The translations under genes were made by a program, and so were the position numbers. From NCBI RefSeq assembly GCF_004136635.1, contig NZ_NOIU01000003.1, positions 124,001-188,000 of the forward strand: 64,000 nucleotides of DNA, in the 5' to 3' direction. Below, one piece after another: positions 1,098-29,814 of the stretch. Every line of letters begins with the position of its first letter. Positions within the stretch are counted from its first letter, which is position 1. The notes beneath the pieces were generated by a model. That model ran no database searches. It was not told where the DNA came from and was given only the letters and a program-made list of their open reading frames with translations. This DNA comes from Rothia halotolerans (GTDB lineage: Bacteria > Actinomycetota > Actinomycetes > Actinomycetales > Micrococcaceae).

Positions 1098-1247
1098 ATC
1101 TCTGCCGAGGTCGGGGAAGCGGGCCGCCCGGGCTTCGCGGGCCGGTCCGTGGGAAGGGGCGGGCAGGAGGGTCGCTCCTGGCCCGGTCCGTTGCGGCCCC
1201 CGGCGCGGACCGGCCTCGGGGGAGGGGCCCGCGCGGGGGAGGGAGGA

Positions 1248-3851: not shown

Positions 3852-3859
3852 GCCGACCG

Positions 3860-3878
3860 GCGGGGCACGTGGCCCCGC
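3860..3878. terminator. Short G+C hairpin between convergent genes
   Basis: A 7 bp perfect stem (3860-3866 with 3872-3878, loop ACGTG) lies 9 bases after the GtrA stop and before the convergent TIGR03089 gene. It has no T-run, so it is a terminator-like hairpin only. Confidence 0.4.
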
Positions 3879-3940
3879 CCGCGGGGCCCGGATCGTCCGC
3901 AGAGTCCGGCCAGCCCGTGAGGGCCCCGCGCCCGCGGCCT

Positions 3941-4690
3941 CTACAGGCTCGCCCGCTCCTCCGCGAGGATCCGCTCGAGCGCCGGACGGTCCCCGGCCAC
4001 CTCCGGGTGGATCAGCACCACCGACCGCCCGGCGCGCATCACTCCCGCGCAGCGGGCGAGCTCCTCCGCCCCGAGCTCCTCGTCCCCCACGGCCAGCGCG
4101 AGCCCGCCCTCCCGGGACGCTGCCGCACCGGCGTGCTCGCCGACCCGCTCCAGCCACTCGCTCTGGGTCACGACGTCGTCCCCGTCCTGGGCCGCCGGGC
4201 TCTCCGGCGGCACCGGCTCGAAGGGGAGGAAGACGTCCCCCTGGCCCCTGACCTCACGGGCGAAGTCGAGCGTCCCCGCGGGCAGTTCCGCGGCGCCGTC
4301 GTAGGACATGGCGAGCGCGCCGCGGGCCATCAGCAGGGCGGTCCCTGCCTCCTCCATCCCGGGGCCGGGCTCGAAGCCCGCCCACAGGTCCGGGGCCTCC
4401 CCGCCGCCAGTCACCAGCCGGCATCCGGCGCGCAGCGCGCCGAGGGCCAGCACCACCGAGCGCCAGTGCGGGGCGGCGGCCAGGCGCAGGGCCGAGCCGG
4501 GCTCGGCGTCGAGCTCCTCGGCGAGGAGATTGGCCGACTTCGCGGTCCAGTTCTCCACCACCCGGCCCGTCAGCTCGACCCTCTCCCCGCCGGGCGCGTA
4601 CCAGATCAGGGCGGGTCCCGAGGAGGCCGCGAGCGCCGTGAAATAAGACTCCATATTGGCCGGTGCATTGGGAACTGTGTGGTCAACCAT
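3941..4690 (-). CDS. TIGR03089-type protein related to the N-terminus of acyl-CoA ligases
   Basis: An actinobacterial family of unknown function that resembles the first part of AMP-binding enzymes but is far shorter (249 residues here against about 500). The sequence shows WYAPGGERVELTGRVVENWTAKSANLL, typical of the N-terminal fold of adenylating enzymes, and a region around ALAMSYDG, but no complete P-loop (TSGTTGxPK) and no C-terminal lid domain. Catalysis by the usual adenylation route is therefore doubtful. It is divergent from whiB and convergent with the GtrA gene. The family name comes from recalled pattern, not from a search. Confidence 0.75.
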   Translation of the reverse strand: MVDHTVPNAPANMESYFTALAASSGPALIWYAPGGERVELTGRVVENWTAKSANLLAEELDAEPGSALRLAAAPHWRSVVLALGALRAGCRLVTGGGEAPDLWAGFEPGPGMEEAGTALLMARGALAMSYDGAAELPAGTLDFAREVRGQGDVFLPFEPVPPESPAAQDGDDVVTQSEWLERVGEHAGAAASREGGLALAVGDEELGAEELARCAGVMRAGRSVVLIHPEVAGDRPALERILAEERASL

Positions 4691-4749
4691 GCTTTTATCG
4701 TAAGGGTCGGTGGACGCCTCTCGCCGAGGTCTAAGAGTCGTGACGCGGC

Positions 4750-4778
4750 TTGACGGGGCGGTCTTACACCGTTGTAAT
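4750..4778 (+). promoter_or_regulatory. whiB promoter with an inverted repeat over the -10 box
   Basis: TTGACG at 4750-4755 and TGTAAT at 4773-4778 are separated by 17 bp, a good sigma-A-type promoter about 50 bases before the WhiB start. A perfect 5-4-5 inverted repeat TTACA-CCGT-TGTAA (4764-4777) overlaps the -10 and could be a repressor operator. The operator is an inference from symmetry and position. Confidence 0.6.
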
Positions 4779-4829
4779 TATGTGAGGCAAGTGGAATATC
4801 GTCGCGCTGGACCGGGGGCGTGAGGAAGG

Positions 4830-5375
4830 ATGGGCATGACCGACGCGATCAGCCGCCAACACGCAACGCTCGACTCCGGGGGAGTCGGTGAGGAGCGCGC
4901 CCCCGGGACCGAGGCCCCCGGGTGGGGGACGGGCAGCGGCCTTCCCCCCACCGGTCGGAGCCTGGAGGAGCAGGCCGACGTCCTGCTCGGAGGGCAGCCG
5001 GAAGCGGCCGAGCCCGCGGGCGTCGAGGCGCCCGCCCAGCGTGCCGCGGCCTGGGGCGAGGAGGCGTCCACCTCGGACCTGTTCTCCTCGGATCCGGCCG
5101 TGCTCAAGCTCTGGCAGGCCGCCGCCGGCCAGTACGGGATCGACGAGGAGGAGGGTGAGCTCGCCTGGCAGGCGGACGCCCTGTGCGCCCAGACCGATCC
5201 CGAGGCGTTCTTCCCCGAGAAGGGCGGCTCCACCCGGGATGCCAAGCGCGTGTGCTCCGAGTGCCCGGTCAGCGAGGCCTGCCTGGACTACGCGCTGGCC
5301 AAGGACGAGCGCTTCGGCATCTGGGGCGGCCTCTCGGAGCGCGAGCGGCGCCGGCTGCGCAAGCGCGCGAGCTGA
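4830..5375 (+). CDS. WhiB-family iron-sulfur transcription factor (WhiB2/WhmD type)
   Basis: WhiB proteins bind a 4Fe-4S cluster and act with the principal sigma factor; the WhiB2 branch controls septation and development in relatives. Four cysteines at 119, 142, 145 and 151 give the C-X22-C-X2-C-X5-C pattern. They are followed by [13 protein letters not shown], the family G[VI]WGG turn, and a basic C-terminus RRRLRKRAS that contacts DNA. The first 110 residues are an unusual acidic, low-complexity extension. The DUF3499 gene directly downstream is the usual neighbour of whiB2, which supports that subtype. Start at ATG 4830; a second ATG two codons on is equally possible. Confidence 0.92.
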
Positions 5376-5406
5376 TTCCCCAGCTCGCGGTAGTACCCTG
5401 AGTCCG

Positions 5407-5661
5407 ATGACGGAGAACATTCGAGCGTGCGCGCGCATGACCTGCCGGCGCGAAGCCACACTGACGCTGACCTACGCCTACGCTGACTCCACGGTGGTGA
5501 TCGGCCCCCTGGCCACCCGCGTGGAGCCCCACGCCTACGACCTTTGCGAGTTCCACGCGGCGCGCCTGACCGCTCCGCGCGGATGGCAGGTCGTCCGCCT
5601 CGAGGGCGACGCCGCCCCGCCGCCGGAGCTCGGCGCGCCCGTCCGGCCCCCGCGCGCATAG
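5407..5661 (+). CDS. DUF3499 family protein
   Basis: An 84-residue protein of unknown function from ATG 5407. It has conserved cysteines near the N-terminus (RACARMTCRREATLTLTYAY), a VVIGPLA turn, and YDLCEFHAARLTAPRGW, giving two Cys pairs plus a His that could bind zinc. It lies 31 bp after whiB on the same strand. This whiB2-DUF3499 pairing is widespread in actinobacteria and suggests co-expression. The role is unknown; a small zinc-ribbon-like protein is the most one can say. Confidence 0.82.
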   Translation: MTENIRACARMTCRREATLTLTYAYADSTVVIGPLATRVEPHAYDLCEFHAARLTAPRGWQVVRLEGDAAPPPELGAPVRPPRA

Positions 5662-6007
5662 ACCCCTCCTCTGAGCCTGGCCCCGCCCCCGGCTCCTGGC
5701 CCGCGCTCCCTCCGAGCCCGGGCTCCGCGCCTCCCGCCTCGGGCCCCGCGGCCCTCGCCCCGGGAGCTGCCGGCACCGCCCCTCTCCGCCGCGGCGCCGA
5801 AGCCGCCTCTTCGCCCTCCGGGTTCTCCCTCCCGCCTCGCTCCTTCCCGGGCGCCGCATCCACCGCCGCCCCGCGCCTCTCCGGCCCCCGACGCCGGGTC
5901 CGTGGACCCGCGCGACGTCGGCCCGCAACCCCGGCGTAACCTGTCCCGCCAGCCGGTACACTGCATCCAGGCGAGCACCGCGCGTCGTTTGAAAGGACGG
6001 TCAGTTC
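5662..6007. other. C-rich intergenic stretch, no gene seen
   Basis: A 346-base gap between the DUF3499 gene and the L,D-transpeptidase gene. The + strand is strikingly pyrimidine-rich (long runs of C with few A). No conserved frame was recognised; open frames here are G+C artefacts. A possible -10 (TACACT, 5957-5962) and a purine-rich ribosome-binding region (GAAAGGA) precede the next gene, but no convincing -35 was found. Confidence 0.5.
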
Positions 6008-7264
6008 GTGAACACCACCCCCTCGTTCGGTCCGGAGAGCGATCCCGCACGGGCCTTCCGGCGCTCCCATCCCGTGAGCCGCCGGAACCTGATGCGCGGC
6101 GGGGCCCTCGGCGTCTTCGGCGCGCTGTTCCTGAGCGCGTGCTCCGGCGAGGACGCCTCCTCGCAGGGCTCCTCCTCCTCGGAGCCCAGCGCCTCCTCGA
6201 CGCCGCCCGCCGTCACGGTCGAGCCCGAGGACGGCGCCCAGCAGGTCAACCCCACGGTTCCCGTGCGGGTCAGCACCGATCGGGGCGAGGTCCTCAGCGT
6301 CGAGCTCACCGGCCCGGCGGGATCGGTCGAGGGCCGGATCTCCGAGGACGGGAAGAGCTGGACCGCCGAGGGGCCGCTGGAGTTCGACGCGGAGTACACC
6401 TTGAACTACCTCGCGCAGGACGGCGAGGACCGGGCGGAGGGCAGCCGCACCTTCTCCACGGTCACGCCCGAGCTCCAGGCCGACGCGACGCTCAACGTCG
6501 TGGAGGGCGAGACCTACGGCGTCGGGCAGGTCATCCAGTTCGCGTTCTCGGAGCCCGTCCTGAACAAGGCCGAGGTGGAGAAGGCGATCACCGTGACCGG
6601 CGGCGGCGCGGAGCCGGGCCGCTTCCGCTGGTACAGCGACATCCTGATGCGCTACCGCCCGCCCGAGAAGTGGGCGCCGCAGTCGCGGGTCGAGCTGACC
6701 GCGAACCTGCTCGGCGTCGACTTCGGCAACGGCATGATCGGCAACGAGAACCTCCGGTTGGCCTTCAGTACGGGCGAGCGGCACTTCGCGATCGTGGACA
6801 ACGCCGATAAGATCCTGCGGGTCTACGTCAACGACGAGCTGACCCAGGAGTTCCCCGCGACCCTGGGCAACCCGGACTGGCCCTCCGTGACCGGCGAGCT
6901 GGTGATCATGGAGCAGCAGGCGAAGTACAGCTTCAACCCGAGCACGCTGGGGCTGTCCAAGGACGACCCGCACTGGTACGAGCCCTTCGACGCCTCGTGG
7001 ACCTCGCGGCTGACCCGCTCGGGGGTCTTCGTGCACCAGGCTCTGCCTTCGGCGATCCCGCTCCTCGGCGTCGCCAACGTCTCCCACGGCTGCATCGGGC
7101 TGCCCCCGGAGGGCGCGAAGTTCATCTACGAGAACTTCCGCGTGGGCGACGTGATCGAGGCGAAGAACACGGACTACCCGCAGGCCGACCCCGACGACGG
7201 CTACGGCGACTGGAACATCCCGTTCGAGCACTACGCCGACCCCGCCTGGCACGGCAACTGGTAG
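6008..7264 (+). CDS. L,D-transpeptidase lipoprotein with Ig-like domain (YkuD catalytic domain)
   Basis: Forms 3-3 cross-links in peptidoglycan on the outer face of the membrane. The 418-residue protein (GTG start) has a Tat-like SRRNLM motif at residues 24-29, a hydrophobic stretch, and lipobox LSAC with the acylated Cys at 45. A Ser-rich linker is followed by two bacterial Ig-like/Ldt-associated segments (about 70-265). The YkuD domain ends in SHGCIGLP, with His360 and catalytic Cys362, then FIYENFRVGDVIE. Canonical Ldts have HGCINLS or HGCVRLS, so the Gly in place of Asn/Arg is a minor variation. The layout matches mycobacterial LdtMt2-type enzymes. Confidence 0.93.
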   Translation: MNTTPSFGPESDPARAFRRSHPVSRRNLMRGGALGVFGALFLSACSGEDASSQGSSSSEPSASSTPPAVTVEPEDGAQQVNPTVPVRVSTDRGEVLSVELTGPAGSVEGRISEDGKSWTAEGPLEFDAEYTLNYLAQDGEDRAEGSRTFSTVTPELQADATLNVVEGETYGVGQVIQFAFSEPVLNKAEVEKAITVTGGGAEPGRFRWYSDILMRYRPPEKWAPQSRVELTANLLGVDFGNGMIGNENLRLAFSTGERHFAIVDNADKILRVYVNDELTQEFPATLGNPDWPSVTGELVIMEQQAKYSFNPSTLGLSKDDPHWYEPFDASWTSRLTRSGVFVHQALPSAIPLLGVANVSHGCIGLPPEGAKFIYENFRVGDVIEAKNTDYPQADPDDGYGDWNIPFEHYADPAWHGNW

Positions 7265-7326
7265 AGTTCAGCCGATGACGATCCCCGCCCGGCCGGGGCG
7301 GGTCCCGACCCACGCCGAGGAGCAGG

Positions 7327-8226
7327 ATGCCCCGCAGCACCGCGCGAGACGACGCTGAGTCCACGCCCTGGGCGGCCTCGCCGCAGCAGGAGTGGGACGA
7401 GCTGGCACCAGCCGTGGCCGAGCCCGCGACCTCGTCGGGGCAGGATGCTCCCGGCGTCGTGCGCGGCGGGTCCGCGGAGCCGGTGCCGGGGGCCGGCGAG
7501 GGTCCCGTGCCGGGGGAGAGCCGCGGCGGGAGCAGTGCCGCCGAGGCGCCCCGTCGCCCGCGCGCGCTGAGGCTGCGGCAGGCGCTCGTCGCGGTGGCCA
7601 CCCCGCTGGTGATCCTGGCCCTGGGCCTGCGCGCGGTCGCCAGCGGGGCCTTCCTCTGGATCGAGTACCACCGGCCCGGCTTCCCCGCCGACCCCTACGG
7701 CTTCAACCCCGACGAGCGCATGACCTACGGCTCGCACGGGCTGAACTACGTCCTGAACCTCGCCCCGGAGCGCTACCTGGGCGACGTCGTGCTGGGCAAC
7801 GGGGACCGGGCCTTCACCGCCCCGGAGATCGGGCACATGACCGACGTCAAGCACGTGCTGCTCTGGGCGCTGCTGGCGGTGGCGGTCTTCGCCGTGGTGG
7901 CCGCCGTCGGTACGCTCGGACTGCGCCGCCGGGCCCCCGGGGCGGTGCGCCGCGCCCTCTTCCTCGGCGGGTGGCTCACCCTGGCGCTGATGATCGCGCT
8001 GGGGATCCTCGCCGGGCTCGGCTGGGAGTCGTTCTTCGTGAGCTTCCACGAGCTGTTCTTCCCCCAGGGGAACTGGGCCTTCCGTCTCTCGGACACCCTG
8101 ATCCGACTCTACCCGCCGCAGTTCTGGGTCGACGCCGCGGCCACCCTCGCCGCCCTCGCCCTCGTCCTCTCCACCGCCCTGCTGGCCATCACCTGGCCCC
8201 GCCGGGCGCGGCGCCGACGGCGCTAG
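7327..8226 (+). CDS. TIGR01906-family (DUF1461) integral membrane protein
   Basis: Unknown function; 299 residues. After an 80-residue hydrophilic Pro/Glu-rich N-terminus come about five predicted membrane helices. Features of the family are visible: a first helix then an extracytoplasmic loop containing NPDERMTYGSHGLNYV, a conserved HMTDVKH motif before the second helix, and ESFFVSFHELFFPQGNW with SDTLIRLYPPQFW before the last helix. The two His-rich loops face the same side and could be functional. It lies 62 bp after the L,D-transpeptidase on the same strand, so an envelope role is plausible. Confidence 0.82.
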   Translation: MPRSTARDDAESTPWAASPQQEWDELAPAVAEPATSSGQDAPGVVRGGSAEPVPGAGEGPVPGESRGGSSAAEAPRRPRALRLRQALVAVATPLVILALGLRAVASGAFLWIEYHRPGFPADPYGFNPDERMTYGSHGLNYVLNLAPERYLGDVVLGNGDRAFTAPEIGHMTDVKHVLLWALLAVAVFAVVAAVGTLGLRRRAPGAVRRALFLGGWLTLALMIALGILAGLGWESFFVSFHELFFPQGNWAFRLSDTLIRLYPPQFWVDAAATLAALALVLSTALLAITWPRRARRRRR

Positions 8227-13789: not shown

Positions 13790-14770
13790 ATGACGCCCCC
13801 CGGAACCACCCGCACCGACGCCCATCCGCACCTGCGCCGCCCGAAGCCGCTGATGTTCCTCCTGGACATCGTGCGCGGCGCGCTGGTGGGCAGCGTCGAG
13901 ACCGTCCCGGGGGTGAGCGGCGGCACCGTCGCGCTCGTCGTCGGGCTCTACGACCGGCTGATCGCCTCGCTGGGGCACATGGTCTCCGGAGTCAAGGACT
14001 GGGTCGTGGGCCTGGTCCGCCGCGACCCCTCCCGCGCGGAGCGGGCGAGGGAGAACTTCCGCCAGGTGCACTGGTGGACGCTGCTGCCGGTGGGGATCGG
14101 CATGCTGATCGCGTTGGCGGTCATGGCGGGGGTGATGTCCAGCCTGGTCGAGGCGTACCCGGTGCACACCTCGGCGGCGTTCTTCGGCATGGTCCTCGCC
14201 TCGCTCTACGTCCCCTTCTCCATGGTCAGTCGGTGGCGGGCCAGGGATCTGATCTTCGCCCTCGTCGCCGCGGCCGCGACCTTCCTGCTGGTCTCTCTGC
14301 CGCCCAGCGGCGCGACCGAGCCCAATCCGCTCCAGATCGTCCTCGCCGCCGCCGTCGCCGTCTCCGCGCTGGTCCTTCCCGGTCTCTCGGGCTCGTTCCT
14401 GTTGCTGACCTTCGGGATGTACGAGGCGACCCTGGGCGCGGTGAGCGACCGGGACCTCGGGTACATCGGACTGTTCTTCCTGGGCGCCCTGCTCGGGGTG
14501 GTCACGGTCATCAAGGGGCTCCAGTGGCTGCTCGAGCACCGCTTCCACATCACCCTGGTGATCCTGACCGGGGTCATGGCCGGGGCGCTGCGGGCGCTGT
14601 GGCCCTGGACCTCCGAGGAGAACGCGCTCCAGCCGGTGGGGGAGCACGCGGGGGCGGCGCTGGCCTGGGCGATCGCCGGGTTCCTCGCCGTCGCACTGAC
14701 CATCCTGGTGGAGCGGCTCTCCGCGCGGGCCGCCGGGCGGCGCTCGGTGTCCCTCGACGCCGGGGAGTGA
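13790..14770 (+). CDS. DUF368 polyprenyl-phosphate transporter (PopT/UptA-like group)
   Basis: DUF368 proteins have recently been linked to recycling of undecaprenyl phosphate across the membrane in several bacteria. The protein has 326 residues and about eight helices, with family motifs GALVGSVETVPGVSGGTVALVVGLYDR near the N-terminus and the internally repeated LVLPGLSGSFLLL around residue 200, followed by FFLGALLGV. The two PG[VL]SG repeats sit in membrane helices as in the family. It is divergent from the ABC exporter. This would serve the same lipid carrier used by the wall enzymes elsewhere in the window. Confidence 0.88.
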   Translation: MTPPGTTRTDAHPHLRRPKPLMFLLDIVRGALVGSVETVPGVSGGTVALVVGLYDRLIASLGHMVSGVKDWVVGLVRRDPSRAERARENFRQVHWWTLLPVGIGMLIALAVMAGVMSSLVEAYPVHTSAAFFGMVLASLYVPFSMVSRWRARDLIFALVAAAATFLLVSLPPSGATEPNPLQIVLAAAVAVSALVLPGLSGSFLLLTFGMYEATLGAVSDRDLGYIGLFFLGALLGVVTVIKGLQWLLEHRFHITLVILTGVMAGALRALWPWTSEENALQPVGEHAGAALAWAIAGFLAVALTILVERLSARAAGRRSVSLDAGE

Positions 14771-14847
14771 AGGCGGGCGCCGCGGGCCCGGGAGCGAGGC
14801 CCGGGCCGCGGGCCGGGGGAGCGCCCTCGGGCGCCGGAGGCGGGCGG

Positions 14848-15870
14848 GTGACTACAGTGGTGAGCGTGACCGACCACCGAGACCCCACCGAGACCGCCGA
14901 CCCCCTCGAATCCGCTGAGCCCGGGGAGGCCTCCGACCTCGCCGATCCCGGCGAGACCGCTGAACCCGCCGGCCCCGACGAGTCTGCCGAGCCCGCCGGC
15001 CCCGCCGAGCCCGCCGTCGCCGGGGAGGGCGGCTCCCTCGTCCTCGCGGCGACCCCCATCGGCAACCTCCGGGACGCCTCCGAGCGGCTGCGCGAGTACC
15101 TGGCCCACGCCGACGTCGTCGCCGTCGAGGACACCCGCCGGCTCAGGACGCTGGCCGCGGGGCTGGGGGTGAGCGTGGGCGGCCGGATCGTGACGAACCA
15201 CGACCACAACGAGGCCCGGCGCGCCGAGGAGCTGGTCGATCAGGTGCGCGCGGGCCGCACCGTGCTGCTGATCTCCGACGCCGGCATGCCCACGGTCTCG
15301 GACCCCGGCTACCGCGTCGTCGAGCGGGCGGTCGCAGAGGGGCTGCGGGTGACCTGCGCCCCCGGCCCCTCCGCCGTGCTCTCCGCGCTCGCGGTCTCCG
15401 GCCTGCCCACCGACCGCTTCGCCTTCGAGGGGTTCATCCCCCGGAAGGCCTCCGAGCGGCGCGCCCGCCTGCGCGAGCTCGCGGGCGAGCAGCGGACCAT
15501 GGTCTTCTACGAGGCCCCGCACCGGCTCGCCGCGATGCTGGGCGCCCTGGTGGAGGGCTTCGGGGACGAGCGGCGCGCCGTCGTCGCCCGGGAGCTCACC
15601 AAGCTCCACGAGGAGGTCCTGCGGGGAAGCTTGGGGGAGCTCTACGTGTGGGCCGAGCAGCATCAGGTCCGGGGGGAGATCGCCGTGGTGGTCGCCGGGG
15701 CGGAGGCGCCCGAGGCGGCCGAGCCGGAGAGCCTCACCGGCGACGTCGAGGCCCTGGTCTCCGAGGGGATGCGCCTGAAGGAGGCGGCCGCGCAGGTCGC
15801 GGGCGAGAACGGGGTCGGCAAGCGCGACCTCTACGAGGCCGTGCTCGCCGAGCGCGCCTCGGGCGAGTAG
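14848..15870 (+). CDS. rsmI: 16S rRNA (cytidine1402-2'-O)-methyltransferase RsmI with acidic N-terminal extension
   Basis: Methylates C1402 of 16S rRNA in the decoding centre using SAM. The catalytic region starts at about residue 62 with [17 protein letters not shown], then [26 protein letters not shown] and FEGFIPRK, all RsmI hallmarks. The first 60 residues are an Asp/Glu/Pro/Ala-rich low-complexity tail not found in E. coli RsmI. The GTG at 14848 is chosen because GGAGG sits 7 bases upstream; GTGs at 14857, 14860 and 14866 are alternatives. The following tatD, rsmA and ispE genes run in the same direction. Confidence 0.92.
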
Positions 15871-15959
15871 CCGCCGCGGGCGCGCAGCCCGCCGCACCAA
15901 CATCGAACAGCGGCGCCGCGGGGACCCCGCCGGCGCCGGGGAAGCGAGAACCGCAGGAC

Positions 15960-17021
15960 ATGTGCACCTCACCGAGCGGATCCTGGCGCGAGCTCGCGCC
16001 CGACGCCGCGGAACTGCTGACGACCCTCTGGCCCGAGGCCGGGGCGCGCCCCGCCGCCGTCGCGGGCGAGGTGCCTCCCGCCTACGAGCCGGAGCGCTAC
16101 GAGGCCGCGACCGAGCCGAGCGGGCCGGGCACCCGCCGCCGCTCCTCCTCCGGGGAGGACGGCAGATCCCGCAACCTGGTCTTCCCGCCGGCCCCCGAGC
16201 CGCTGCCCGAGCCGGTCGCGGACAACCACACCCACATGGACCTGCTCGACGGCGACGTCGCCGTCTCCGCCCGCGACGCCCTGGACACCGGGGAGGAGCT
16301 CGGCATCGGCGCCATCGTGCAGGTGGGCTGCGACCTGCCCTCCTCCGCCTACGCCCTCGCCGCCGCGGAGGCCGACCCCCGGGTGCTGGCCGCCGTGGCG
16401 ATCCACCCCAACGAGGCGCCCGACCTCGCGGCCGCCGGGAAGCTCGACGCCGCCCTCGAGGCGCTGGCCGAGATGGCCCGGTCCCCTCGGGTCCGGGCCA
16501 TCGGGGAGACGGGCCTGGACTACTTCCGCACCGAGGAGGGCGGGCGCGCCGCCCAGCGGGAGAGCTTCCGGAAGCACATCCGGCTGGCCCACGAGACCGG
16601 GCTGGCGCTGCAGATCCACGATCGGGACGCGCACGAGGACGTCGTCGCCATCCTGGAGGAGGAGGGCGCCCCCGAGCGCACCGTCTTCCACTGCTACTCC
16701 GGCGGCCCCGAGCTCGCCCGGATCTGCAACGAGCGCGGCTGGCGGATGTCCTTCGCCGGGACGGTCACGTTCAAGAACTCCCGGGACATCCAGGCCTCCC
16801 TGGAGATCGCGCGCCCCGAGCTGATCCTCGCCGAGACCGACGCCCCGTTCCTGACCCCGCACCCCTTCCGGGGCCGACCCAACGCCTCCTACATGACCAA
16901 CTACACGGTGCGCTACATCGCCCAGCGCCGCGGCGAGGACCTCGCGGAGGTCTGCCGCCGGATCCGGGAGAACTCGGTGGCGGTCTACGGCTCCTGGGGC
17001 CTGCCGGGCTTCGGCGCGTGA
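15960..17021 (+). CDS. tatD: TatD-family metal-dependent deoxyribonuclease
   Basis: A 353-residue TIM-barrel hydrolase. The metal site begins at NHTHMDLL (about residue 83). Other family motifs are [17 protein letters not shown] with the metal-bound Glu, [19 protein letters not shown] and [17 protein letters not shown] with the catalytic Asp. About 80 residues precede the barrel, including an Arg/Ser-rich stretch [13 protein letters not shown]; most TatD proteins begin right at the metal motif. The gene starts 89 bases after rsmI and ends 23 bases before rsmA, the usual tatD-rsmA-ispE order. Confidence 0.92.
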
Positions 17022-17044
17022 GCGGCCATAGTAGGGTGCATGGG

Positions 17045-17914
17045 GTGAGAGACAACGCGCTGCTGGGACCCGCCGAGATCCGCGAGCTCGCCGAGCGGGC
17101 GGGCGTCCGCCCCACCAAGACCCTCGGGCAGAACTTCGTGATCGACCCCAACACCATCCGGCGGATCATCGCGACCGCCGGGGTGGAGCCGGGGGAGACC
17201 GTCCTCGAGGTCGGACCCGGGCTCGGCTCGCTCACGCTCGGGCTGCTGGACGCGGCCGAGCGCGTCGTCGCGGTGGAGATCGACCCGCCGCTGGCGGAGC
17301 AGCTGCCCGAGACGGCGGCCCGCTTCCGTCCGGGGTCCGCCGGGCGCCTCGACGTCGTGCTCTCGGACGCGCTGCGCGTCACCGAGCTGCCGGCCGCGCC
17401 GGACGCCCTGGTGGCCAACCTGCCCTACAACGTCGCCGTCCCGGTGCTCATCCACCTGCTGGAGACCTTCCCCACGCTCAAGCACGGGCTGGTGATGGTC
17501 CAGGACGAGGTCGCGGACCGGCTCGCGGCCGGGCCCGGGTCCAAGGTGTACGGGGTGCCCTCGGTCAAGGCCTCGTGGTTCGCCGAGGTCCGCAAGGCCG
17601 GGGTGATCGGGACCAACGTCTTCTGGCCGGCGCCCAAGATCCGCTCCGGGCTGGTCGCCTTCGTCCGGCGGGAGGAGCCATTGGCGCAGGTGGACCGGCG
17701 GACGCTGTTCGACGTCGTCGACGCCGCCTTCGCCCAGCGCCGCAAGACCCTGCGCTCGGCGCTGTCCGGGTGGGCGGGCTCCGGCGCGGAGGCCGAACGG
17801 ATCCTGCGGCGGGCGGGCGTCGACCCGGGCCTGCGCGGGGAGCGGCTCTCCGTCGAGGACTTCGCTCGGATCGCCGCGGCGGCGGACGCGCCCGCGGAGG
17901 GATCCAGGGGATGA
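17045..17914 (+). CDS. rsmA: 16S rRNA (adenine1518/1519-N6)-dimethyltransferase RsmA/KsgA
   Basis: Dimethylates two adjacent adenosines near the 3' end of 16S rRNA, a late step in 30S maturation. The 289-residue protein shows [12 protein letters not shown] at the start, SAM motif [26 protein letters not shown], and the catalytic motif [14 protein letters not shown]. The C-terminal small domain has [13 protein letters not shown] at 17045 is the chosen start; GTG 17036 is nine bases upstream in frame. The stop overlaps the ispE ATG as ATGA at 17911-17914. Confidence 0.96.
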
Positions 17915-18888
17915 TCCCGCCCCTGCGCCGCACCGCGACGGCTCCGGGCAAGGTCAACCTGTACTTCGCCGTCGGCCCGGCCCGGCCGGACGGCTACCAC
18001 GACGTCGCCAGCCTCTACGCGGCGGTCGACCTGCACGAGTCCGTGACCGCCGAGCTCGGGCCCCGGGGGTCGGGAACCTCGATCACGACGTCGCTGCGGC
18101 CGGGCTCCGCGCTCGCCGCGATGGCCGAGCGCGGTCGCTTCTCCCTCGACGCGGTGCCCTCCGACGGCCGGAACCTCGCGGTGCGCGCCGCGGGGCTCCT
18201 GCTCCGGCACCACGGCCTCCCGGAGGACCTCGGGCTGAGGCTCGAGGTCGTCAAGGAGATCCCGGTGGCGGGCGGGATGGCGGGAGGGTCCGCCGACGCC
18301 GCCGCCGCCCTGCGCGCGGTCGGGGAGCTGCTGGCCCGCGCCGGGCTCGCGCCCCGGCTCGGCGAGGCCGCGCTGCGGGACCTCGCCGCCGAGCTGGGGG
18401 CGGACGTCCCCTTCGCGCTGCTCGGCGGGGTCGCCGTGGGGCGCGGGACCGGGACCGAGCTGACCCCCGTGCCGCTCGCGGAGCCCCTGGCCGTGGAGCT
18501 GCTGCCGGCCGAGTACGGCCTTTCGACGCCGGAGGTCTTCCGCGAGCTGGACCGGCTGCGGGCGCAGGGGGACGCCCCGGCCCCCGGGCCCCTCGAGGTC
18601 CCGGACCGGCTGCTCCGGGCGCTGGCCGAGCCCGGGCCCGGCCTCGCCCGTCTCGCCCCGCTGCTGCGCAACGACCTCCAGGCCGCGGCCGCGAGCCTGC
18701 GCCCCGAGCTCGCGACGGCGCTGGGCCCCCGCGACGGATGGGCGACCATGCTCTCCGGCTCGGGCCCCACGGTGCTGCGCCTGGGCGGACCGGGCGGCGC
18801 CTCCTCCGGCCCGGGGGAGGGGCAGGCGCCGTCCGCCGAGGCGATCCGCACGGTCATCCCGGCGCGCCCCGGCCTCGGCGACCTCTGA
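17911..18888 (+). CDS. ispE: 4-diphosphocytidyl-2-C-methyl-D-erythritol kinase IspE
   Basis: GHMP kinase of the MEP isoprenoid pathway. It has 325 residues with [24 protein letters not shown] at the N-terminus, the GHMP ATP loop [17 protein letters not shown], and the C-terminal [12 protein letters not shown] glycine motif. It is translationally coupled to rsmA by a 4-base overlap. It feeds the polyprenyl carriers used by the lipid-linked wall enzymes in the window. Confidence 0.95.
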
Positions 18889-18901
18889 GCGTCTGAGCCC
18901 T

Positions 18902-18929
18902 CTCTCCGGTCTCTGACCCGGCCGGAGAG
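18902..18929. terminator. Hairpin between convergent ispE and lysR-type gene
   Basis: An 8 bp stem, CTCTCCGG (18902-18909) with CCGGAGAG (18922-18929), lies 13 bases after the ispE stop in a 90-base convergent gap. It has no T-run, so termination is inferred from structure and position. Confidence 0.45.
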
Positions 18930-18978
18930 CCATTCGGCCCGGCCGGAGGTCCGCGAGCGCCTGAGCGCCCCCTTTCCC

Positions 18979-19878
18979 TTACGGCAGAGCGACCCGCCGC
19001 ATGGCGTCCAGGAAGCCCGCCGTCAGGGGATTGGCGTCGTCGATCCTGGTCGCGGCCACGATCTGCCGCCGCGGCATCCGGTCGGCCACCGGCAGCGCGA
19101 CGACGTCCTCCTCGTCCGCGCGGTACCCGATGTCCGGGATCATGGCCACGGCCAGCCCGGCCGCGACGATGCCCTTGACCGTCCCGACGTTGTTGCTGCG
19201 GAACGCGATCTCCGGCCGGAAGCCGCTGCCGGCGCACAGCGCCTGGAGGCAATGGTGCGAGGGCGTCTCCTCGCGATGGGCCACCCAGGTCTCGCCGCGC
19301 AGCTCCTCGAGGCGCACCGTCTCCTTGCCGCTCAGCCGGTGCTTCCTCGGCGCGACGATGCGCAGGTCCTCCGTCATGACCTCCGTGAGCCGCAGGTTCG
19401 CCGGGAACTCCCGAGGGACCAGGTCGTACTGGAACCCGAGGGCCAGATCGAGGCTCCCGTCCGCGACGCGGGGGAAGAGCTCATAGGGCTCTCCCTCGTC
19501 CAAGGTGATCTCGACCTCCCGACGGCGGATGAGGAATCGGGCCATCGCCTGGCCCAGGATCGGCCCGCCGGCGGAGTCGAAGGTGCCCACGCGCAGTCGC
19601 CCGGTCTCGCCGGCACCCAGGCGCGCGAGGTCGATCTCCAGCTGGCCGAGCAGGTCGATGACCTGCTCGCTGCGCTGGCGGACGTAGTGCGCCGCCTCGG
19701 TGGGGAGCACGCTGCGGGGCTCCCGGTCGAACAGGCGGATCCCCACGCTGCGCTCCAGCGCCGCCATCTGCTGGGACACCGCCGACGGCGTGTACCCGAG
19801 CTCGCGTGCGGCCGCCGCGAAGGATCCGGTCCGCATCACGATGCTCATGGTCATGAGGCTGTTCACGTCCAGGGTCAT
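18979..19878 (-). CDS. LysR-type transcriptional regulator
   Basis: A 299-residue LTTR. The winged helix-turn-helix covers residues 1-65 (MTMSIVMRTGSFAAAARELGYTPSAVSQQ then RLFDREPRSVLPTEAA). A coiled linker leads to a substrate-binding domain of about 200 residues (RVGTFDSAGGPILGQ, LALGFQYDLV, GIVAAGLAVAMIPDIG). It is divergent from a sodium:solute symporter across a 204-base gap, the classic layout for an LTTR controlling the neighbouring transport and catabolic genes. The effector is probably the transported compound or its CoA derivative, which is inference. Confidence 0.92.
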   Translation of the reverse strand: MTLDVNSLMTMSIVMRTGSFAAAARELGYTPSAVSQQMAALERSVGIRLFDREPRSVLPTEAAHYVRQRSEQVIDLLGQLEIDLARLGAGETGRLRVGTFDSAGGPILGQAMARFLIRRREVEITLDEGEPYELFPRVADGSLDLALGFQYDLVPREFPANLRLTEVMTEDLRIVAPRKHRLSGKETVRLEELRGETWVAHREETPSHHCLQALCAGSGFRPEIAFRSNNVGTVKGIVAAGLAVAMIPDIGYRADEEDVVALPVADRMPRRQIVAATRIDDANPLTAGFLDAMRRVALP

Positions 19879-20082
19879 CCCGCGAGTGTATCCCGCATCA
19901 CCGGCCAGCTCGCCAGAGCCCGGGCCTCCCGTCTTCGCCTTCGACGAGCATCAGCACAGCTGTGCCTCAGGTCACTCAACTCTGGTTCTCGCCGCCTGCC
20001 GGAGGGTCTCCGCCCTGCCTAGAGTTGTGACCCAGATCCCCTCAGCAGGGCCCGACGGGCCGTCCAGCGGAAGCGTGACTCC

Positions 20083-24174: not shown

Positions 24175-24522
24175 ATGCACCATCTCTCTCCGGATGAGTT
24201 CGACGCCCTGGTCTCGGACTGCCTCGACGCCGTCCCCGAGGAGGCGTTCGCGCACCTCGACAACGTGGTCTTCCTGGTCGAGGACCGTCCCGAGGACGGC
24301 AGCGACCTGCTGGGGATGTACGAGGGGATCTCGCTGACCGAGCGCGCCCAGTACGGCTACGGGAACATGCCCGACCGCATCGTGCTCTTCCGGGAGAACC
24401 TGCTGGCGGCCTGCGCCGACCGCGAGGAGCTGGAGCGGGAGGTCCGTATCACCCTGATGCACGAGATCGCGCACTGCTACGGGATCCCGGAGGAGCGCCT
24501 CCACGAGCTGGGGTGGGGCTGA
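24175..24522 (+). CDS. Small zincin-like metallopeptidase family protein (DUF1025 type)
   Basis: A 115-residue protein with the zinc-binding helix LMHEIAHCYGIPEERLHELGW, that is HExxH followed by a downstream His/Glu. It is preceded by VVFLVEDRP and LGMYEGISLTERAQYGYGNMPDRIVLFR, the family's beta-sheet core. The length is normal for these minimal zincins found across actinobacteria, whose proteolytic activity is largely unproven. It is the last high G+C gene before the AT-rich island. Confidence 0.88.
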   Translation: MHHLSPDEFDALVSDCLDAVPEEAFAHLDNVVFLVEDRPEDGSDLLGMYEGISLTERAQYGYGNMPDRIVLFRENLLAACADREELEREVRITLMHEIAHCYGIPEERLHELGWG

Positions 24523-24743
24523 GGGCGCTCAAGTACCCCAGCGGTCGGCCCTAGTCGCTATAGTGGGTTTTCATTGATGAGGTTGAGACTCAGCACCTGC
24601 CGGGGTTGTGGGTCCTTCCCTGTGCTAGCCAAGCTTCCCAGCCGAATCCAGCGAGTCTTTCACGAGGAGTAAATAAGTATTATATAGCTTAGTAGCGTGT
24701 ACCTTTACTGTGAATGTCTACTTAAATGAGGAGAATGGGAGCG
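24523..24743. other. Left flank of AT-rich island, non-coding
   Basis: The composition falls within this stretch from chromosomal G+C to AT-rich (TAAATAAGTATTATATAGC around 24670-24690). No tRNA, integrase or clear direct repeat was seen. A GAGGAG ribosome-binding site (24728-24733) lies 10 bases before the chosen DUF262 start. The island promoter must lie here, but no convincing -35/-10 pair was assigned. Confidence 0.5.
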
Positions 24744-26438
24744 ATGAGCGAAATCGTTACGCGTACCCGGGCTGGCGTCTATCGTATCGAGGATATTGTT
24801 AAACTTGTGATGGAGGGTAAGCTACGCGTGCCTGAGTTTCAGCGTAATTTTAGATGGTCGCGAAAAGACGTCCTTGAGCTTTTTGATAGTATTCTTAAGG
24901 GTTACCCAGTGGGTAGCCTCCTTCTATGGCGTCACGCAGCGCCGGCAGCTTCAGTCTCTTTAGGAGAATTGCACATATCTGCTCCAGGTATTGCAGAGGC
25001 AACATGGGTTGTAGACGGCCAACAACGAATAACAGCAATTGCCAATGCTGTGTCGCAAGAGGCGTATGATGCATCAGAAAAGTTTCGCATCGACTATGAT
25101 CTAACAAGACAATCTTTTGTTCTGGGCAGTGGAAATGATGAAGAGCTTCGGGTGCCATTGCCGGTTCTTTTCGATCTGAGGCGTTTATTAACGTGGGCTC
25201 AGAGTCGGCCCGCTGCGGTGGAGTACATACAGACAATAAACGATATTGCTGTAAAATTGAGGGACTTCTCGGTTCCGGCCTCCATCGTGGATGAGAGTAA
25301 TGAGGATACATTACGAGAGATTTTTGATCGCACGAATAACTCTGGAAAGAAACTGAGGCGAGCAGAAGTATTCCACGCTTTGTTTAGTGAAAAACATGAC
25401 GCAGGGCTAACCATTGAAGCGATAGCTGATGAATTAGAAAGCACTGGGTTCGGTAAAATTGATAGTGACACTGTACTGCATGCAATTCTAGCGAGGCGTC
25501 ATGCTGATTTCAGTCGGGATCTAAGGCAAGAGTTTTCCAAAGACCGTGAGCTTCGTTTAGACGTATCGGCCAACGAAACGCAGGAGAAGGCTTTTCAAGG
25601 TGGGCATGATGCTTTGCGAAGGGCAGTAACGTTCCTTCAAGAAGAGGCAAGAGTCCCCCATGTTACTTTTTTACCCTATAAGTACCTAATTACTACTTTG
25701 GCACGATTCTTTGCGCATCATCCTAATCCACACCCTCGTAATCAAGATCTTCTAGTACGATGGTTTTGGCGCACTGCATTAGCTCCGACCCTTTTTAGTG
25801 GAAGTGCAACAGCGATGGGTCGAGGTCTTACAAGTAGAATAAATCCAGGTGACGAAGCTCAATCCGTGCAAGATCTTTTATCATTAGTTCCGGATGATTT
25901 TTCCTTTCTCTGGCCGGATGTCAATAAATTTCGCACAAATACAGCTTCCACGAAAATTATTCTTTGCGCACTTTATAAAACGGGTCCTCGACGTTTCCAA
26001 GACGGAGAGATTATAGATGTTACCTCACTAGCTAAGAGTCTTGAAGACACTCAAACTGCTCATGATGTAGTAGCTGATATAGTGCCCCGGGGTCGTATTC
26101 GAAACTCATTTCTAGCCAGAGGCGCAGGGGGAAAATTCTTTCTTGGAGATGATGATGTTTCTCTTGAGGAATGCCGCGATATTTTAGCAAGGAATGCTCC
26201 AAACCTATTTACAGATATTGATGCGATTTCAAATTCTCATTTAGTTGATGAGAAATTATCTGCGGCACTTAGAGAGGGACGTACGGAAGATTTTCTTGAG
26301 GGCCGGCTTGAGGCAATAGGTGAAGTCGTGCAAGATTTTCTATCTGTTCGGATGGGGCTGGATTTTCCAAGCAATCCACCGCTTGAGTCTTATGATTTAG
26401 ATGACTCTGATGGATTCCGTGATGCTTATGACTCTTGA
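24744..26438 (+). CDS. DUF262 domain protein (GmrSD/SspE-type N-terminal DGQQR domain), no nuclease domain recognised
   Basis: A 564-residue protein. The DUF262 core spans residues about 10-240: VPEFQRNFRWSRKDVLELFD (FQR at 32-34), the GYPVGSLLLW strand, the nucleotide-site motif DGQQR at 91-95 (WVVDGQQRITA), and FDRTNNSGKKLRRAEVF (D195 to G201). These match the NTPase-like half of GmrSD, BrxU and SspE defence proteins. The remaining 320 residues show no DUF1524-type HNH motif. ATG 24744 is chosen because GAGGAG lies 10 bases upstream; ATG 24726 and 24735 are also in frame. Codon use is clearly foreign. The 3' end overlaps the HipA gene by 11 bases, suggesting translational coupling and a joint function. 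Confidence 0.85.
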   Translation: MSEIVTRTRAGVYRIEDIVKLVMEGKLRVPEFQRNFRWSRKDVLELFDSILKGYPVGSLLLWRHAAPAASVSLGELHISAPGIAEATWVVDGQQRITAIANAVSQEAYDASEKFRIDYDLTRQSFVLGSGNDEELRVPLPVLFDLRRLLTWAQSRPAAVEYIQTINDIAVKLRDFSVPASIVDESNEDTLREIFDRTNNSGKKLRRAEVFHALFSEKHDAGLTIEAIADELESTGFGKIDSDTVLHAILARRHADFSRDLRQEFSKDRELRLDVSANETQEKAFQGGHDALRRAVTFLQEEARVPHVTFLPYKYLITTLARFFAHHPNPHPRNQDLLVRWFWRTALAPTLFSGSATAMGRGLTSRINPGDEAQSVQDLLSLVPDDFSFLWPDVNKFRTNTASTKIILCALYKTGPRRFQDGEIIDVTSLAKSLEDTQTAHDVVADIVPRGRIRNSFLARGAGGKFFLGDDDVSLEECRDILARNAPNLFTDIDAISNSHLVDEKLSAALREGRTEDFLEGRLEAIGEVVQDFLSVRMGLDFPSNPPLESYDLDDSDGFRDAYDS

Positions 26439-27645
26439 AGCTAGGCATGCTGTTCTTCTGTCGGGACAGGAAATTGGTGTTTTGCATCAAAGAGGTGATC
26501 ATGTTCGCTTTAGTTTCCTGCCGAGTTATTGGGAAAATCCTGAACGTCAGGTTTTGGGTTTGTGGTTCGAAGATAGGCGAAATGCTCGCATTGCCTCTTC
26601 ACTTAGGCTTCCACCCTGGTTTGCGAATCTTTTACCGGAGGGCCATCTAAGAAACCTTATCGCAGTTGATAGAAAAGTATCCGGCGATAGGGAGATGGAG
26701 CTCTTAGCGCAGGTTGGGCATGATCTTCCAGGTGCGGTGCAAATTTTGGATGGAAAGGGTGAAGACGTTCCATGGCTCCATAATGATATATTGAATGACA
26801 AGAGCAGTGGTATTACGCTTCCAGTCGGCCCAATTAAGTTCTCACTAGCTGGCGTGGGCTTAAAATTTTCTATGATGAAAGAAGGGGAACGTTTTACTAT
26901 ACCGGGGAGCTCGGATACCGGGTCGCACTGGATCGTAAAACTCCCCGATGCTAGGCATAGGGCTGTTCCTCAGAATGAGTTTGCGGTCATGCAGCTTGCC
27001 AAATCCGTCGGAATTGAGGTGCCAGAGATACATTCCTTGCACCGAGAGGAAGCGTTCGGTATCCCGGATCACCTATGGCCTACAGGCGAAGAATTTGCAT
27101 TTGCGATAAAGAGATTTGATCGTGGGAATGATGGAAGTCGAATTCATATAGAAGATTTTGCGCAGATTCGTGGGTTTTATTCGGAAGAAAAATACCGTGG
27201 TGCGTTTGAAACGATTGCTGCGCTTTGTTATAGGGGAGAGGATGAAGATTCGTTATGTGAGTTTGTGAGAAGATTTGTTTTTAACGTAATCGTTGGAAAT
27301 GGTGACGCGCATTTAAAGAATTGGTCAATGATTTATCCAGACGGCCGATCCCCACGGCTATCTCCAGCTTATGATATCGTTTCTACGATCGTGTATAATT
27401 TAAATGATGATATAGGGCTAAAATTCGGTGGCAGCAAGCGCTTTGATGATGTTTTGAGGTGGAAGTTTAAAAAACTTGAACAGACTCTTGGGGTACCGAG
27501 TGGCTTGCTGGTAGATATAGTTGATAAGACCTGCTCTAGGATTTCAGAAGTATGGGATCCTCAGTTATTTCCAGATAGCTTGGAGCCGGCTCGTAAGTGG
27601 ATTGAGAAATCTATTAGCCGATATGAGTCTAATTTTTTTATTTAA
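26428..27645 (+). CDS. HipA-type Ser/Thr kinase, apparently intact, without a HipB antitoxin gene
   Basis: A 405-residue HipA-family kinase. The N-terminal HipA_N part includes LLPEGHLRN. The glycine-rich loop is FSLAGVGLKFS with Ser139 at the position of the autophosphorylated Ser150 of E. coli HipA. Lys171 (HWIVKLP) is the ATP lysine, FAIKRFDR is the hinge region, NGDAHLKN carries the catalytic Asp293, and PAYDIVS the metal-binding Asp316. In E. coli, HipA phosphorylates GltX and halts growth. No HipB-like helix-turn-helix gene is in the island. In-frame ATGs at 26401, 26410 and 26422 are alternative starts; all overlap the DUF262 gene. Confidence 0.88.
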   Translation: MTLEARHAVLLSGQEIGVLHQRGDHVRFSFLPSYWENPERQVLGLWFEDRRNARIASSLRLPPWFANLLPEGHLRNLIAVDRKVSGDREMELLAQVGHDLPGAVQILDGKGEDVPWLHNDILNDKSSGITLPVGPIKFSLAGVGLKFSMMKEGERFTIPGSSDTGSHWIVKLPDARHRAVPQNEFAVMQLAKSVGIEVPEIHSLHREEAFGIPDHLWPTGEEFAFAIKRFDRGNDGSRIHIEDFAQIRGFYSEEKYRGAFETIAALCYRGEDEDSLCEFVRRFVFNVIVGNGDAHLKNWSMIYPDGRSPRLSPAYDIVSTIVYNLNDDIGLKFGGSKRFDDVLRWKFKKLEQTLGVPSGLLVDIVDKTCSRISEVWDPQLFPDSLEPARKWIEKSISRYESNFFI

Positions 27646-27748
27646 TTTCTCACGGGGCGAGCAATTCCGTATAATTCTAATTGGAGCATTGAAAGGTGCC
27701 ATGCTGGCCCCATTATCAAAGTGAACGATGACGTTCAGCCAACTCGAA

Positions 27749-29560
27749 TCACCCCGCGATCTCCGACAGCTCCAGCCAGCGCATCTCCAGCTCGTCGATC
27801 TCGTCCTGCACGGCCTGGGTCTTCTTCCCGAACTCCGCCAGCCCGGAGTAGTCGGACTGGTCGTGCGCGGCCATCTGCTCGTGCAGCTCCTCCTTCGTCG
27901 AGGCGAGCTTCGCCAGTTTCCGGTCGATCGCCTTGATCTCCTTCTGGGCCTCGCGGATCTCCGCGCCGCTGTGGGAGGAGGCGTCGGCGGAGCCCGAGGC
28001 GCCCAGCGGGCTGGAGGAGGGCTGCGACGAGCGCTCGGCGTCGGCCCGCTCCTGACGCCGCAGGTACTCGTCGATCCCGCCGGGCATGTGCCGCAGGCCG
28101 CCGTCCATCACCGCGTACTGCTGGTCGGTCACCCGCTCCATGAGGTAGCGGTCGTGGGTGACCACCAGCAGGGTGCCCGGCCAGGTGTCCAGCAGGTCCT
28201 CCATGGCCGCGAGCATGTCGGTGTCCAGGTCGTTGGAGGGCTCGTCCAGGATGAGGACGTTGGGCTCGTCCAGCAGGATCAGCAGCAGCTGCAGACGGCG
28301 CTTCTGCCCGCCGGAGAGGTCGCGGACCGGCGTCGCCAGCTGGGCGTTGGTGAAGCCCATCCGCTCCAGCAGCTGCCCCGGCGTCATCTCCTTGCCGCCG
28401 GCCACGTAGGTGGTGCGCTTGCGTCCGATCACGTCCGAGACGCGCTCGTCCCGCACCTCGGTCAGCTCGTCCAGCTGCTGCGTCAGGGTGGCCACCCGGA
28501 TCGTCTTGCCGCGCTTGACCCGGCCGCGGTCAGGCTCCACCGCCCCGGTGACCAGGCCCAGCAGCGTCGACTTCCCGGCACCGTTGATGCCGAGGATGCC
28601 GGTACGCTCGCCGGGGGCGATCCGCCAGGTGACGTCCCTGAGCACCTCGCGCTCGCCGCCGCCGGGCAGGGGATAGGAGACCGAGGCGTCCTCGATGTCC
28701 ACCACGTCCTTGCCCAGCCGGGAGACCGCCAGCTGGGAGAGCTCGACGCGGTCGCGCACCGGGGGGACGTCCGCGATCAGCTCGTTGGCGGCGTCGATCC
28801 TGAACTTGGGCTTCGAGGTCCGCGCCGGGGCGCCGCGGCGCAGCCAGGCGAGCTCCTTGCGCATGAGGTTCTGGCGCTTGGCCTCGGCGGCCGCGGCCTG
28901 GCGGTCGCGCTCCACGCGCTGGAGCACGTACGCGGCGTACCCGCCCTCGAAGGAGTCCACGACGCCGTCGTGCACCTCCCACGTGTCGGTGCAGATCTCG
29001 TCGAGGAACCAGCGGTCGTGGGTCACGGTGAGCAGGCCGCCGGAGCTCTTGGGCCAGCGCTGGTTCAGGTGCCGGGCGAGCCAGGTGATGCCCTCGACGT
29101 CGAGGTGGTTGGTGGGCTCGTCCAGCATCAGAACGTCCCAGTCCCCGGCCAGCAGCGCGGCCAGGGCCACCCGGCGGCGCTGGCCGCCGGAGAGGGAGGG
29201 GACGGGGGCGTTCCAGTCGAGGTCGCCGAGCAGGCCGGAGACGACGTCGCGGATCTTCGGCTCGGAGGCCCACTCGTGCTCGGGGATGTCCCCGACCACG
29301 GCCTCGCCCACGGTGAGCTCCTCGTCCAGCACGTCCGACTGGTCCAGGTAGCCGATCCGCACGCCGGAGCGGACCGTGACGCGGCCGGAATCGGGCTTCA
29401 GCCGCTGGGTCAGCAGCGCCATGAGGGTCGACTTCCCGTCGCCGTTGCGGCCGACGATGCCGATCCGGTCGCCCTCGTCGACCCCCACGGTCACGCCCTC
29501 GAAGACGGTCCGGGTGGGGAACTGGATGTGCAGCGATTCGCCGCCGAGTAGATGTGCCAC
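27749..29560 (-). CDS. ABC-F family ATPase (ribosome-associated type)
   Basis: Two ATPase domains in one soluble chain with no membrane segment, 603 residues. Domain 1 has GRNGDGKSTL, signature SLSGGQRRR and LMLDEPTNHLD; domain 2 has GINGAGKSTLLGL, DLSGGQKRR and LILDEPSNDLD. A charged linker lies between them, and a C-terminal coiled coil (KEIKAIDRKLAKLASTKEEL) ends the protein, as in Uup-like ABC-F members. These act on ribosomes or nucleic acid rather than transport. Its 3' end borders the AT-rich island and its start faces tRNA-Gln and glmU. Confidence 0.92.
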   Translation of the reverse strand: MAHLLGGESLHIQFPTRTVFEGVTVGVDEGDRIGIVGRNGDGKSTLMALLTQRLKPDSGRVTVRSGVRIGYLDQSDVLDEELTVGEAVVGDIPEHEWASEPKIRDVVSGLLGDLDWNAPVPSLSGGQRRRVALAALLAGDWDVLMLDEPTNHLDVEGITWLARHLNQRWPKSSGGLLTVTHDRWFLDEICTDTWEVHDGVVDSFEGGYAAYVLQRVERDRQAAAAEAKRQNLMRKELAWLRRGAPARTSKPKFRIDAANELIADVPPVRDRVELSQLAVSRLGKDVVDIEDASVSYPLPGGGEREVLRDVTWRIAPGERTGILGINGAGKSTLLGLVTGAVEPDRGRVKRGKTIRVATLTQQLDELTEVRDERVSDVIGRKRTTYVAGGKEMTPGQLLERMGFTNAQLATPVRDLSGGQKRRLQLLLILLDEPNVLILDEPSNDLDTDMLAAMEDLLDTWPGTLLVVTHDRYLMERVTDQQYAVMDGGLRHMPGGIDEYLRRQERADAERSSQPSSSPLGASGSADASSHSGAEIREAQKEIKAIDRKLAKLASTKEELHEQMAAHDQSDYSGLAEFGKKTQAVQDEIDELEMRWLELSEIAG

Positions 29561-29691: not shown

Positions 29692-29762
29692 TCCGCCTTG
29701 GTGTAATGGCAGCACAGCGGCCTTTGGAGCCGTTTGTCTAGGTTCGAGTCCTAGAGGCGGAA
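29692..29762 (+). tRNA. tRNA-Gln (anticodon TTG)
   Basis: A full cloverleaf can be drawn. The acceptor stem is TCCGCCT paired with AGGCGGA (29755-29761), with discriminator A at 29762. The anticodon stem GCGGC/GCCGT encloses loop CTTTGGA, giving anticodon TTG. The T arm is CTAGG-TTCGAGT-CCTAG. CCA is not encoded. It lies about 50 bases before glmU, read in the same direction. Confidence 0.95.
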
Positions 29763-29814
29763 CGAGTCGGCGCAGCCAGCGCGGGCTGTCGCAGCACGAG
29801 GAGTCCCCAGCACC

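Follow-up and report, generated by a model that had tools for sequence, protein, structure and literature searches.

A low-G+C gene pair of Rothia halotolerans that joins a GmrSD/BrxU homologue without its nuclease motif to a HipA kinase, an apparent toxin-like or virus-defence module not described before

A stretch of 64,000 nucleotides (nt) from Rothia halotolerans (assembly GCF_004136635.1, contig NZ_NOIU01000003.1, positions 124,001-188,000; hereafter the window, in whose positions all coordinates of this genome are given) contained a two-gene cassette encoding a DUF262/GmrSD_N protein and a HipA family Ser/Thr kinase. The DUF262 and HipA genes almost certainly form one functional unit, and the pair has the look of a toxin-like or virus-defence module not yet described. 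The proposal that both genes belong to one system had been made from the letters of the window alone (the sequence-only reading); it is now strongly supported by adjacency to HipA of 32/33 DUF262 genes of the clade, close junctions at 42/42 loci, correlated protein distances (r 0.86), and a single branch of paired proteins in the DUF262 tree.

The first gene (nt 24744-26438, plus strand; frame open from an ATG at 24726) encoded a protein of 564 amino acids (aa) which, scanned from this upstream ATG, matched PF03235 in Pfam (E 6.7e-28) and aligned over its full length to the BrxU/GmrSD profile, the fold also matching. The QR, DGQQR (nt 25014-25028, plus strand) and FxxxN motifs were kept and were nearly invariant among the 42 DUF262 proteins of pairs, whereas at the place of the HNH nuclease residues, D474-H475 of BrxU, alignment to BrxU placed Ala-Asp (nt 26073-26078, plus strand), so that the motif was lost. 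This nuclease motif (HHIFP/DHIYP) was present in 0/24 HipA-paired DUF262 proteins versus 70/79 others, and in none of the larger set of 42 paired proteins. None of the 30 A1 members was listed with the Pfam domain GmrSD_C, which is a weak indicator, as the motif-bearing relative L005 scores only E 0.07. The sequence-only reading had taken DUF262 for the NTPase-like half of GmrSD, BrxU and SspE proteins; the family and the NTPase motifs stand, but what is encoded is, judging from the alignments, a full-length GmrSD/BrxU homologue with a predicted dead nuclease domain and with its putative NTP-binding and hydrolysis motifs kept, not the N-terminal half alone.

The second gene (nt 26428-27645, plus strand; alternative starts at 26401, 26410 and 26422) encoded a HipA kinase of 405 aa with the domains HipA_C (E 3.8e-48) and Couple_hipA (E 2.4e-20), which also matched the HipA fold. 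Alignment to Escherichia coli HipA located the Ser of the Gly-rich loop at the place of S150 (nt 26842-26844), the Lys, the catalytic Asp at the place of D309 (nt 27304-27306) and the Mg-binding Asp at the place of D332 (nt 27373-27375), all on the plus strand. The numbers S150 and D309 occur in titles of PDB entries, and the other two correspond to K181 and D332 of the E. coli protein. These residues were identical in 38-40 of 40 paired HipA proteins, with two gaps and with the loop Ser invariant (40/40), a count that omits L081 and L091, in which HipA is in pieces. By sequence and by model, the window HipA has a complete set of active-site residues. No HipB gene was observed, in that neither the gap between the zincin and DUF262 genes nor that between the HipA and ABC-F genes held an open reading frame of at least 60 aa free of other genes; the upstream partner of HipA was DUF262 in 42 loci.

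Larger HipA proteins were also observed. Eleven of 625-798 aa (P0247-P0257) were 39-44% identical to the window HipA and had a C-terminal extension that lacked a Pfam match in the four scanned; such proteins may form a HipA group that lacks DUF262. The HipA frame of two pair loci from Myxococcota (L002, nt 1875-3896; L003, nt 1820-3841) had 674 codons, and in L002 the stretch behind the kinase resembled, by eye, an S-adenosylmethionine methyltransferase.

Pairing was counted with cut-offs of at least 290 bits for DUF262 and at least 278 bits for HipA, the best few candidates being scored per genome. Overall, with no double counting and in the sets of genomes to which both profiles were applied, 32 of 33 DUF262 genes of the clade were adjacent to HipA, the remaining one (G162) having DUF262 and HipA on different contigs, and 33 of 36 HipA genes of the clade were adjacent to DUF262, the rest being that of G162, one solitary gene (G434) and one fragment (G375). 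Within the class (296 genomes), 17 DUF262 and 17 HipA matches lay above the cut-offs and 16 of each were directly adjacent, DUF262 first; below the cut-offs, the best HipA match scored 127 bits, while DUF262 matches, at up to 223 bits, were without HipA. The family of G055 (200 genomes) had 18/18 DUF262 genes of at least 290 bits paired, plus one lower-scoring match (G427 contig 1), and 19/21 HipA genes of at least 278 bits paired, the other two being the intact solitary gene of G434 and the fragment of G375; that family also had a broken HipA of lower score (G370) and one decayed pair (G350). All four DUF262 and all four HipA genes were paired in the family of G139 (251 genomes), and a search of the family of G172 (35 genomes) with the DUF262 profile only gave 11 matches, both new ones being paired. 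Outside Actinomycetota, the pair was found in a metagenome-assembled genome of Chromatiaceae (L001), in Corallococcus and two further Myxococcota (L002-L004), and on two Azospirillum plasmids, one of them typed as conjugative, so that it is known from three phyla, Actinomycetota, Pseudomonadota and Myxococcota. The sequence-only reading had suggested looking in other genomes for DUF262 genes directly upstream of hipA without hipB, and such pairs were found at the frequencies given above; genes apart as often as together, or DUF262 genes beside unrelated neighbours, were looked for as signs against one system and did not occur.

The two genes of the window overlapped by 11 bases (nt 26428-26438, plus strand), as had been noted from the letters, given a HipA start at the ATG at 26428; the overlap would be 38 bases if translation started at the ATG at 26401. 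In all 42 pair loci (L017 lies on the same contig as the locus of G268 and was counted once), HipA probably started -14 to +5 nt from the stop of DUF262, the start being taken as the start codon closest to the first position of the profile, so that single junction values may be off. The junction is thus conserved, and translational coupling of the two genes may be inferred. DUF262 and HipA protein distances were correlated in a Mantel test of 40 of the 42 loci, excluding L081 and L091 (r 0.859; maximum 0.202 over 2000 permutations). A quick tree built from 63 DUF262 proteins placed 37 HipA-paired proteins on one side of a branch with a Shimodaira-Hasegawa-like approximate likelihood ratio (SH-aLRT) support of 100, 18 nuclease-motif proteins, a selection of the 70, on another (99), and 8 proteins with a DGHQR motif on a third (97); five of the 42 pair proteins (L189, L202, L209, L230 and L231) were omitted from it, and two paired ones (L004 and L194) had long end branches. 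If the root lies among the nuclease-motif proteins, one nuclease loss would account for both dead groups.

The cassette is a recently acquired low-G+C insertion. In a sister species (G319), the zincin and ABC-F regions shared 86% and 89% DNA identity with those of the window (blastn, G319 C32 versus window) and were 23 bp apart; therefore, about 3.2 kb was inserted in the window genome. This segment, which the sequence-only reading had already held to be foreign, could by this comparison be bounded at about nt 24523-27748. The drop in G+C and the two-gene insert between zincin and ABC-F genes described there were likewise confirmed: G+C was 0.45 for the gene pair versus 0.72 for the flanks (0.41-0.48 in windows inside the pair, about 0.67-0.75 outside), and third-position G+C was 0.35 and 0.40 for the pair genes versus 0.96 and 0.98 for the adjacent genes. 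The G+C of the pair was below that of its own flanks in 16/16 loci measured, with the widest gap in the window. Among 35 genomes of the genus searched, the DUF262 gene was found (E 1e-40) in the window genome only. Terminal repeats of at least 10 bases or a long target duplication were not found at the insert with seeds of 8, which a shorter duplication would escape. The flanking host genes were a Zincin_1 gene (nt 24175-24522, plus strand; Pfam scan) and an ABC-F type gene (nt 27749-29560, minus strand). A tRNA-Gln (TTG) gene was located at nt 29692-29763, about 2 kb past the insert, and two neighbouring minus-strand frames (588 and 297 aa) at nt 14206-16862 had no Pfam match at E 1e-5.

As to function, the sequence-only reading, which made DUF262 the sensor or controller and HipA the effector, can be stated more closely. 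DUF262 probably controls HipA. We give about even chances to the fuller proposal that the cassette is a nuclease-dead type IV restriction scaffold which both restrains and triggers a HipA effector, as a toxin-antitoxin-like abortive module, and place slightly below that the chance that the trigger is invading or modified DNA. The dead restriction protein would bind HipA and keep the kinase inactive; its NTPase domain would then meet a trigger, probably modified or foreign DNA as with GmrSD, BrxU and SspE, and a nucleotide-driven rearrangement would free or activate HipA in place of a nuclease. HipA would phosphorylate a component of translation, halting growth of the infected or invaded cell, and the role of the pair would be antiviral. 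More tentatively, a GmrSD/BrxU sensor may have swapped its effector, so that, with the nuclease lost, NTP hydrolysis triggered by modified DNA switches on HipA and leads to kinase-mediated abortive infection. Both HipA kinases and DUF262 proteins have known places in defence or toxin systems; new here is that the full-length DUF262 partner lacks the HNH nuclease motif, with its NTPase motifs and the catalytic residues of HipA retained. The arrangement suggests that restriction sensors could be rewired from DNA cutting to cell stopping, and it makes the control and triggering of a HipB-less HipA directly testable, as characterised relatives of the sensor have known ligands (modified cytosines and phosphorothioate).

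Several observations weigh against a dedicated defence module. The expectation that the pair would sit in defence islands was borne out only in that a defence neighbour occurred now and then: a full-length PglX (nt 16235-19948 of locus L154; 1699 bits in PADLOC) lay 4.6 kb from the pair of G171, and N6_Mtase lay within 20 kb on the same contig in 1/32 pair genomes (G132, about 16 kb). By the same distance criterion, PglZ accompanied the pair in none of the 32, although N6_Mtase matched somewhere in 28 of these genomes and PglZ in 13; distances were worked out by hand, and broken contigs can hide neighbours. In G171, the sole PglZ match was far away. Of 130 neighbour proteins, 111 were tallied against PADLOC at E 1e-10 (13/15 pair loci, 49,491 residues), with 111 of 225 random proteins (44,143 residues) as controls, and 58 and 39 families were matched, respectively, with no clear sign of defence-gene enrichment; among the best 25 of each, the difference came mostly from RecD helicases and from ABC-type ATPases matching the mad3 and mad8 models. 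Single scans of ten neighbours bore this out: they were ABC ATPases and RecD helicases apart from one that matched nothing and PglX, the one true defence gene, which had not shown among those best families. Neighbours of pair loci were mostly housekeeping genes among the best 25 of 121 families in a Pfam tally. These findings indicate that, in a survey that was not exhaustive, the pair is at most an occasional and not a regular member of defence islands. Viral relatives were likewise scarce, with none for HipA in viral_contigs (one scan, with the HipA alignment and exact peptide patterns) and one weak DUF262 match (24.6% identity) in 50,697 phage records, and no fused DUF262-HipA protein was found among 28 matches at E 1e-40 (7,992 candidates scored). 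Some DUF262 match was present in 19 plasmid records; of the six examined, the two from Azospirillum carried the pair and four did not. As a further observation on placement, Pfam tallies and gene sizes alone suggest that several pair or solitary-HipA loci, L249, L251 and others, may adjoin genes of fatty-acid oxidation (for a thiolase and a 3-hydroxyacyl-CoA dehydrogenase) and a gene resembling that of ribonuclease D, as though a single chromosomal site had been used again and again.

Also on the opposing side, HipA can survive where its partner is not whole: it is intact and solitary in G434, and in G162 an intact HipA close to the start of one contig has no DUF262 remnant adjoining it, the DUF262 of that genome being frameshifted close to the end of another contig. 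Because no such remnant was present, G162 was not counted as paired; its reading as one pair split over two contig ends was rejected on the same frameshift and missing remnant. Conversely, DUF262 was intact and HipA broken or truncated in three of the 42 loci (L081, L090 and L091), and the reverse was seen in none of the 42. As this set was selected mostly via DUF262, and as G162 is a case of the reverse, decay does not tell reliably which of the two genes encodes the toxin.

The cassette might instead be a plain type II-like toxin-antitoxin system for self-maintenance, in which DUF262 acts only as antitoxin and autorepressor and senses neither modified nor foreign DNA. The order, partner first and kinase second, and the overlapping genes resemble hipBA, and the conjugative Azospirillum plasmid, the scattered chromosomal sites, the few defence neighbours and the three loci with an intact DUF262 beside a damaged HipA would fit as well. 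Yet NTPase motifs nearly invariant in 42 proteins would be needless for a mere binding antitoxin, the partner, at about 560 aa, is far larger than HipB, and an intact HipA occurs both alone and with a frameshifted DUF262; we consider this explanation rather unlikely. Reversed roles, in which DUF262 would be the effector, for instance acting against phage as an NTPase or by binding DNA, and HipA would regulate it by phosphorylation, would accord with the intact NTPase motifs and with KKP, a kinase-based module reported to have antiphage activity. This is a good deal less probable, as the known effector part of the DUF262 family, the HNH nuclease, is lost, whereas HipA retains catalytic residues known from a toxin kinase and is reported to be the required toxic part in HipA-DUF3037. 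Least probable, to a degree that makes it hardly credible, is that two unrelated accessory genes without a defence or addiction role travel together by chance linkage: the recent low-G+C insertion and the patchy distribution (any DUF262 match at E 1e-40 in 18/296 genomes of the class) would allow it, but pairing, order and junction are kept over three phyla and throughout the DUF262 tree, and the catalytic residues are kept too.

Among known systems, no description of a DUF262-HipA pairing was found in the open-licence literature of PubMed Central (PMC), preprints excluded, in agreement with the earlier remark that no such system was known; one paper, PMC11980606, mentions DUF262, GmrSD and HipA, the last only in its reference list. 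The DUF262 protein resembles BrxU and GmrSD in its full-length profile alignment, its fold, and the QR, DGQQR and FxxxN motifs common to paired DUF262 proteins, and differs in that the HHIFP/DHIYP motif is absent from all paired proteins tested and that a HipA gene is added. In BrxU, the substitutions D474A and H475A are reported to abolish DNA cleavage and phage resistance (PMC8565348). The neighbourhoods of GmrSD, described in PMC4619093 as defence-island-like, are unlike those seen for the HipA pair. Related precedents are GrwAB, a GmrSD system of two genes whose DUF262 domains are both reported to matter (PMC12137116), and SspE, which works by "recognize-hydrolyze-activate" (PMC13251355). 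Menshen, Dazbog, PD-T4-2 (PMC10952713) and ptuXYZ (PMC11980606) are similar in that, as described there, DUF262 without a DUF1524 domain takes part in a defence system, but their partners are others, such as a predicted OLD nuclease in Menshen; the word "kinase" is absent from the main text of PMC10952713.

On the kinase side, the HipA fold and active-site residues are shared with hipBA, hipBST and other Hip kinase operons, in contrast to which no HipB, HipS, HipN or HipR partner is present here; ten Hip kinase organisations are named in PMC8262856, in the main text of which "DUF" does not occur. HipA-DUF3037 (PDC-M66, DS-6, HipAD) is likewise a two-gene arrangement of a HipA-like kinase and a non-HipB partner, and its antiphage activity is reported as tested; there, however, the partner is DUF3037/DUF1829, whereas here it is a dead GmrSD protein (GmrSD_N only by Pfam). 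Deletion of HipA is reported to end defence and deletion of DUF3037 to be toxic (PMC12548924), and DS-6/HipAD (PMC13092281) is a precedent of a HipA antiphage module. PDC-M55, of which no mention was found in the open-licence PMC literature, contains the PADLOC family that comes closest to the DUF262 protein of the window (PDC-M55C, E 3.6e-57), and the members observed here also lack the nuclease motif. On plasmid pYEE5 of Paracoccus yeei (L172, nt 3654-7653), a PDC-M55C DUF262 gene formed an operon with PDC-M55A (AAA_15 ATPase) and PDC-M55B (no Pfam family); a DGHQR DUF262 was PDC-M55C by PADLOC in another locus (L170, nt 5929-7659) and stood beside PDC-M55B in a third (L100, nt 1078-4189), and the other five DGHQR proteins were assigned to this group by score, the DGHQR motif and missing HipA. 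The PDC-M55 partners are thus not HipA, the motif is DGHQR, the branch is separate, and the window HipA had no match to the PDC-M55 models at E 0.001. These comparisons suggest several different partners for dead GmrSD proteins; if the control of HipA proposed here holds, then, together with PDC-M55, nuclease-dead GmrSD proteins would be a general plug-in class of sensors with interchangeable effectors.

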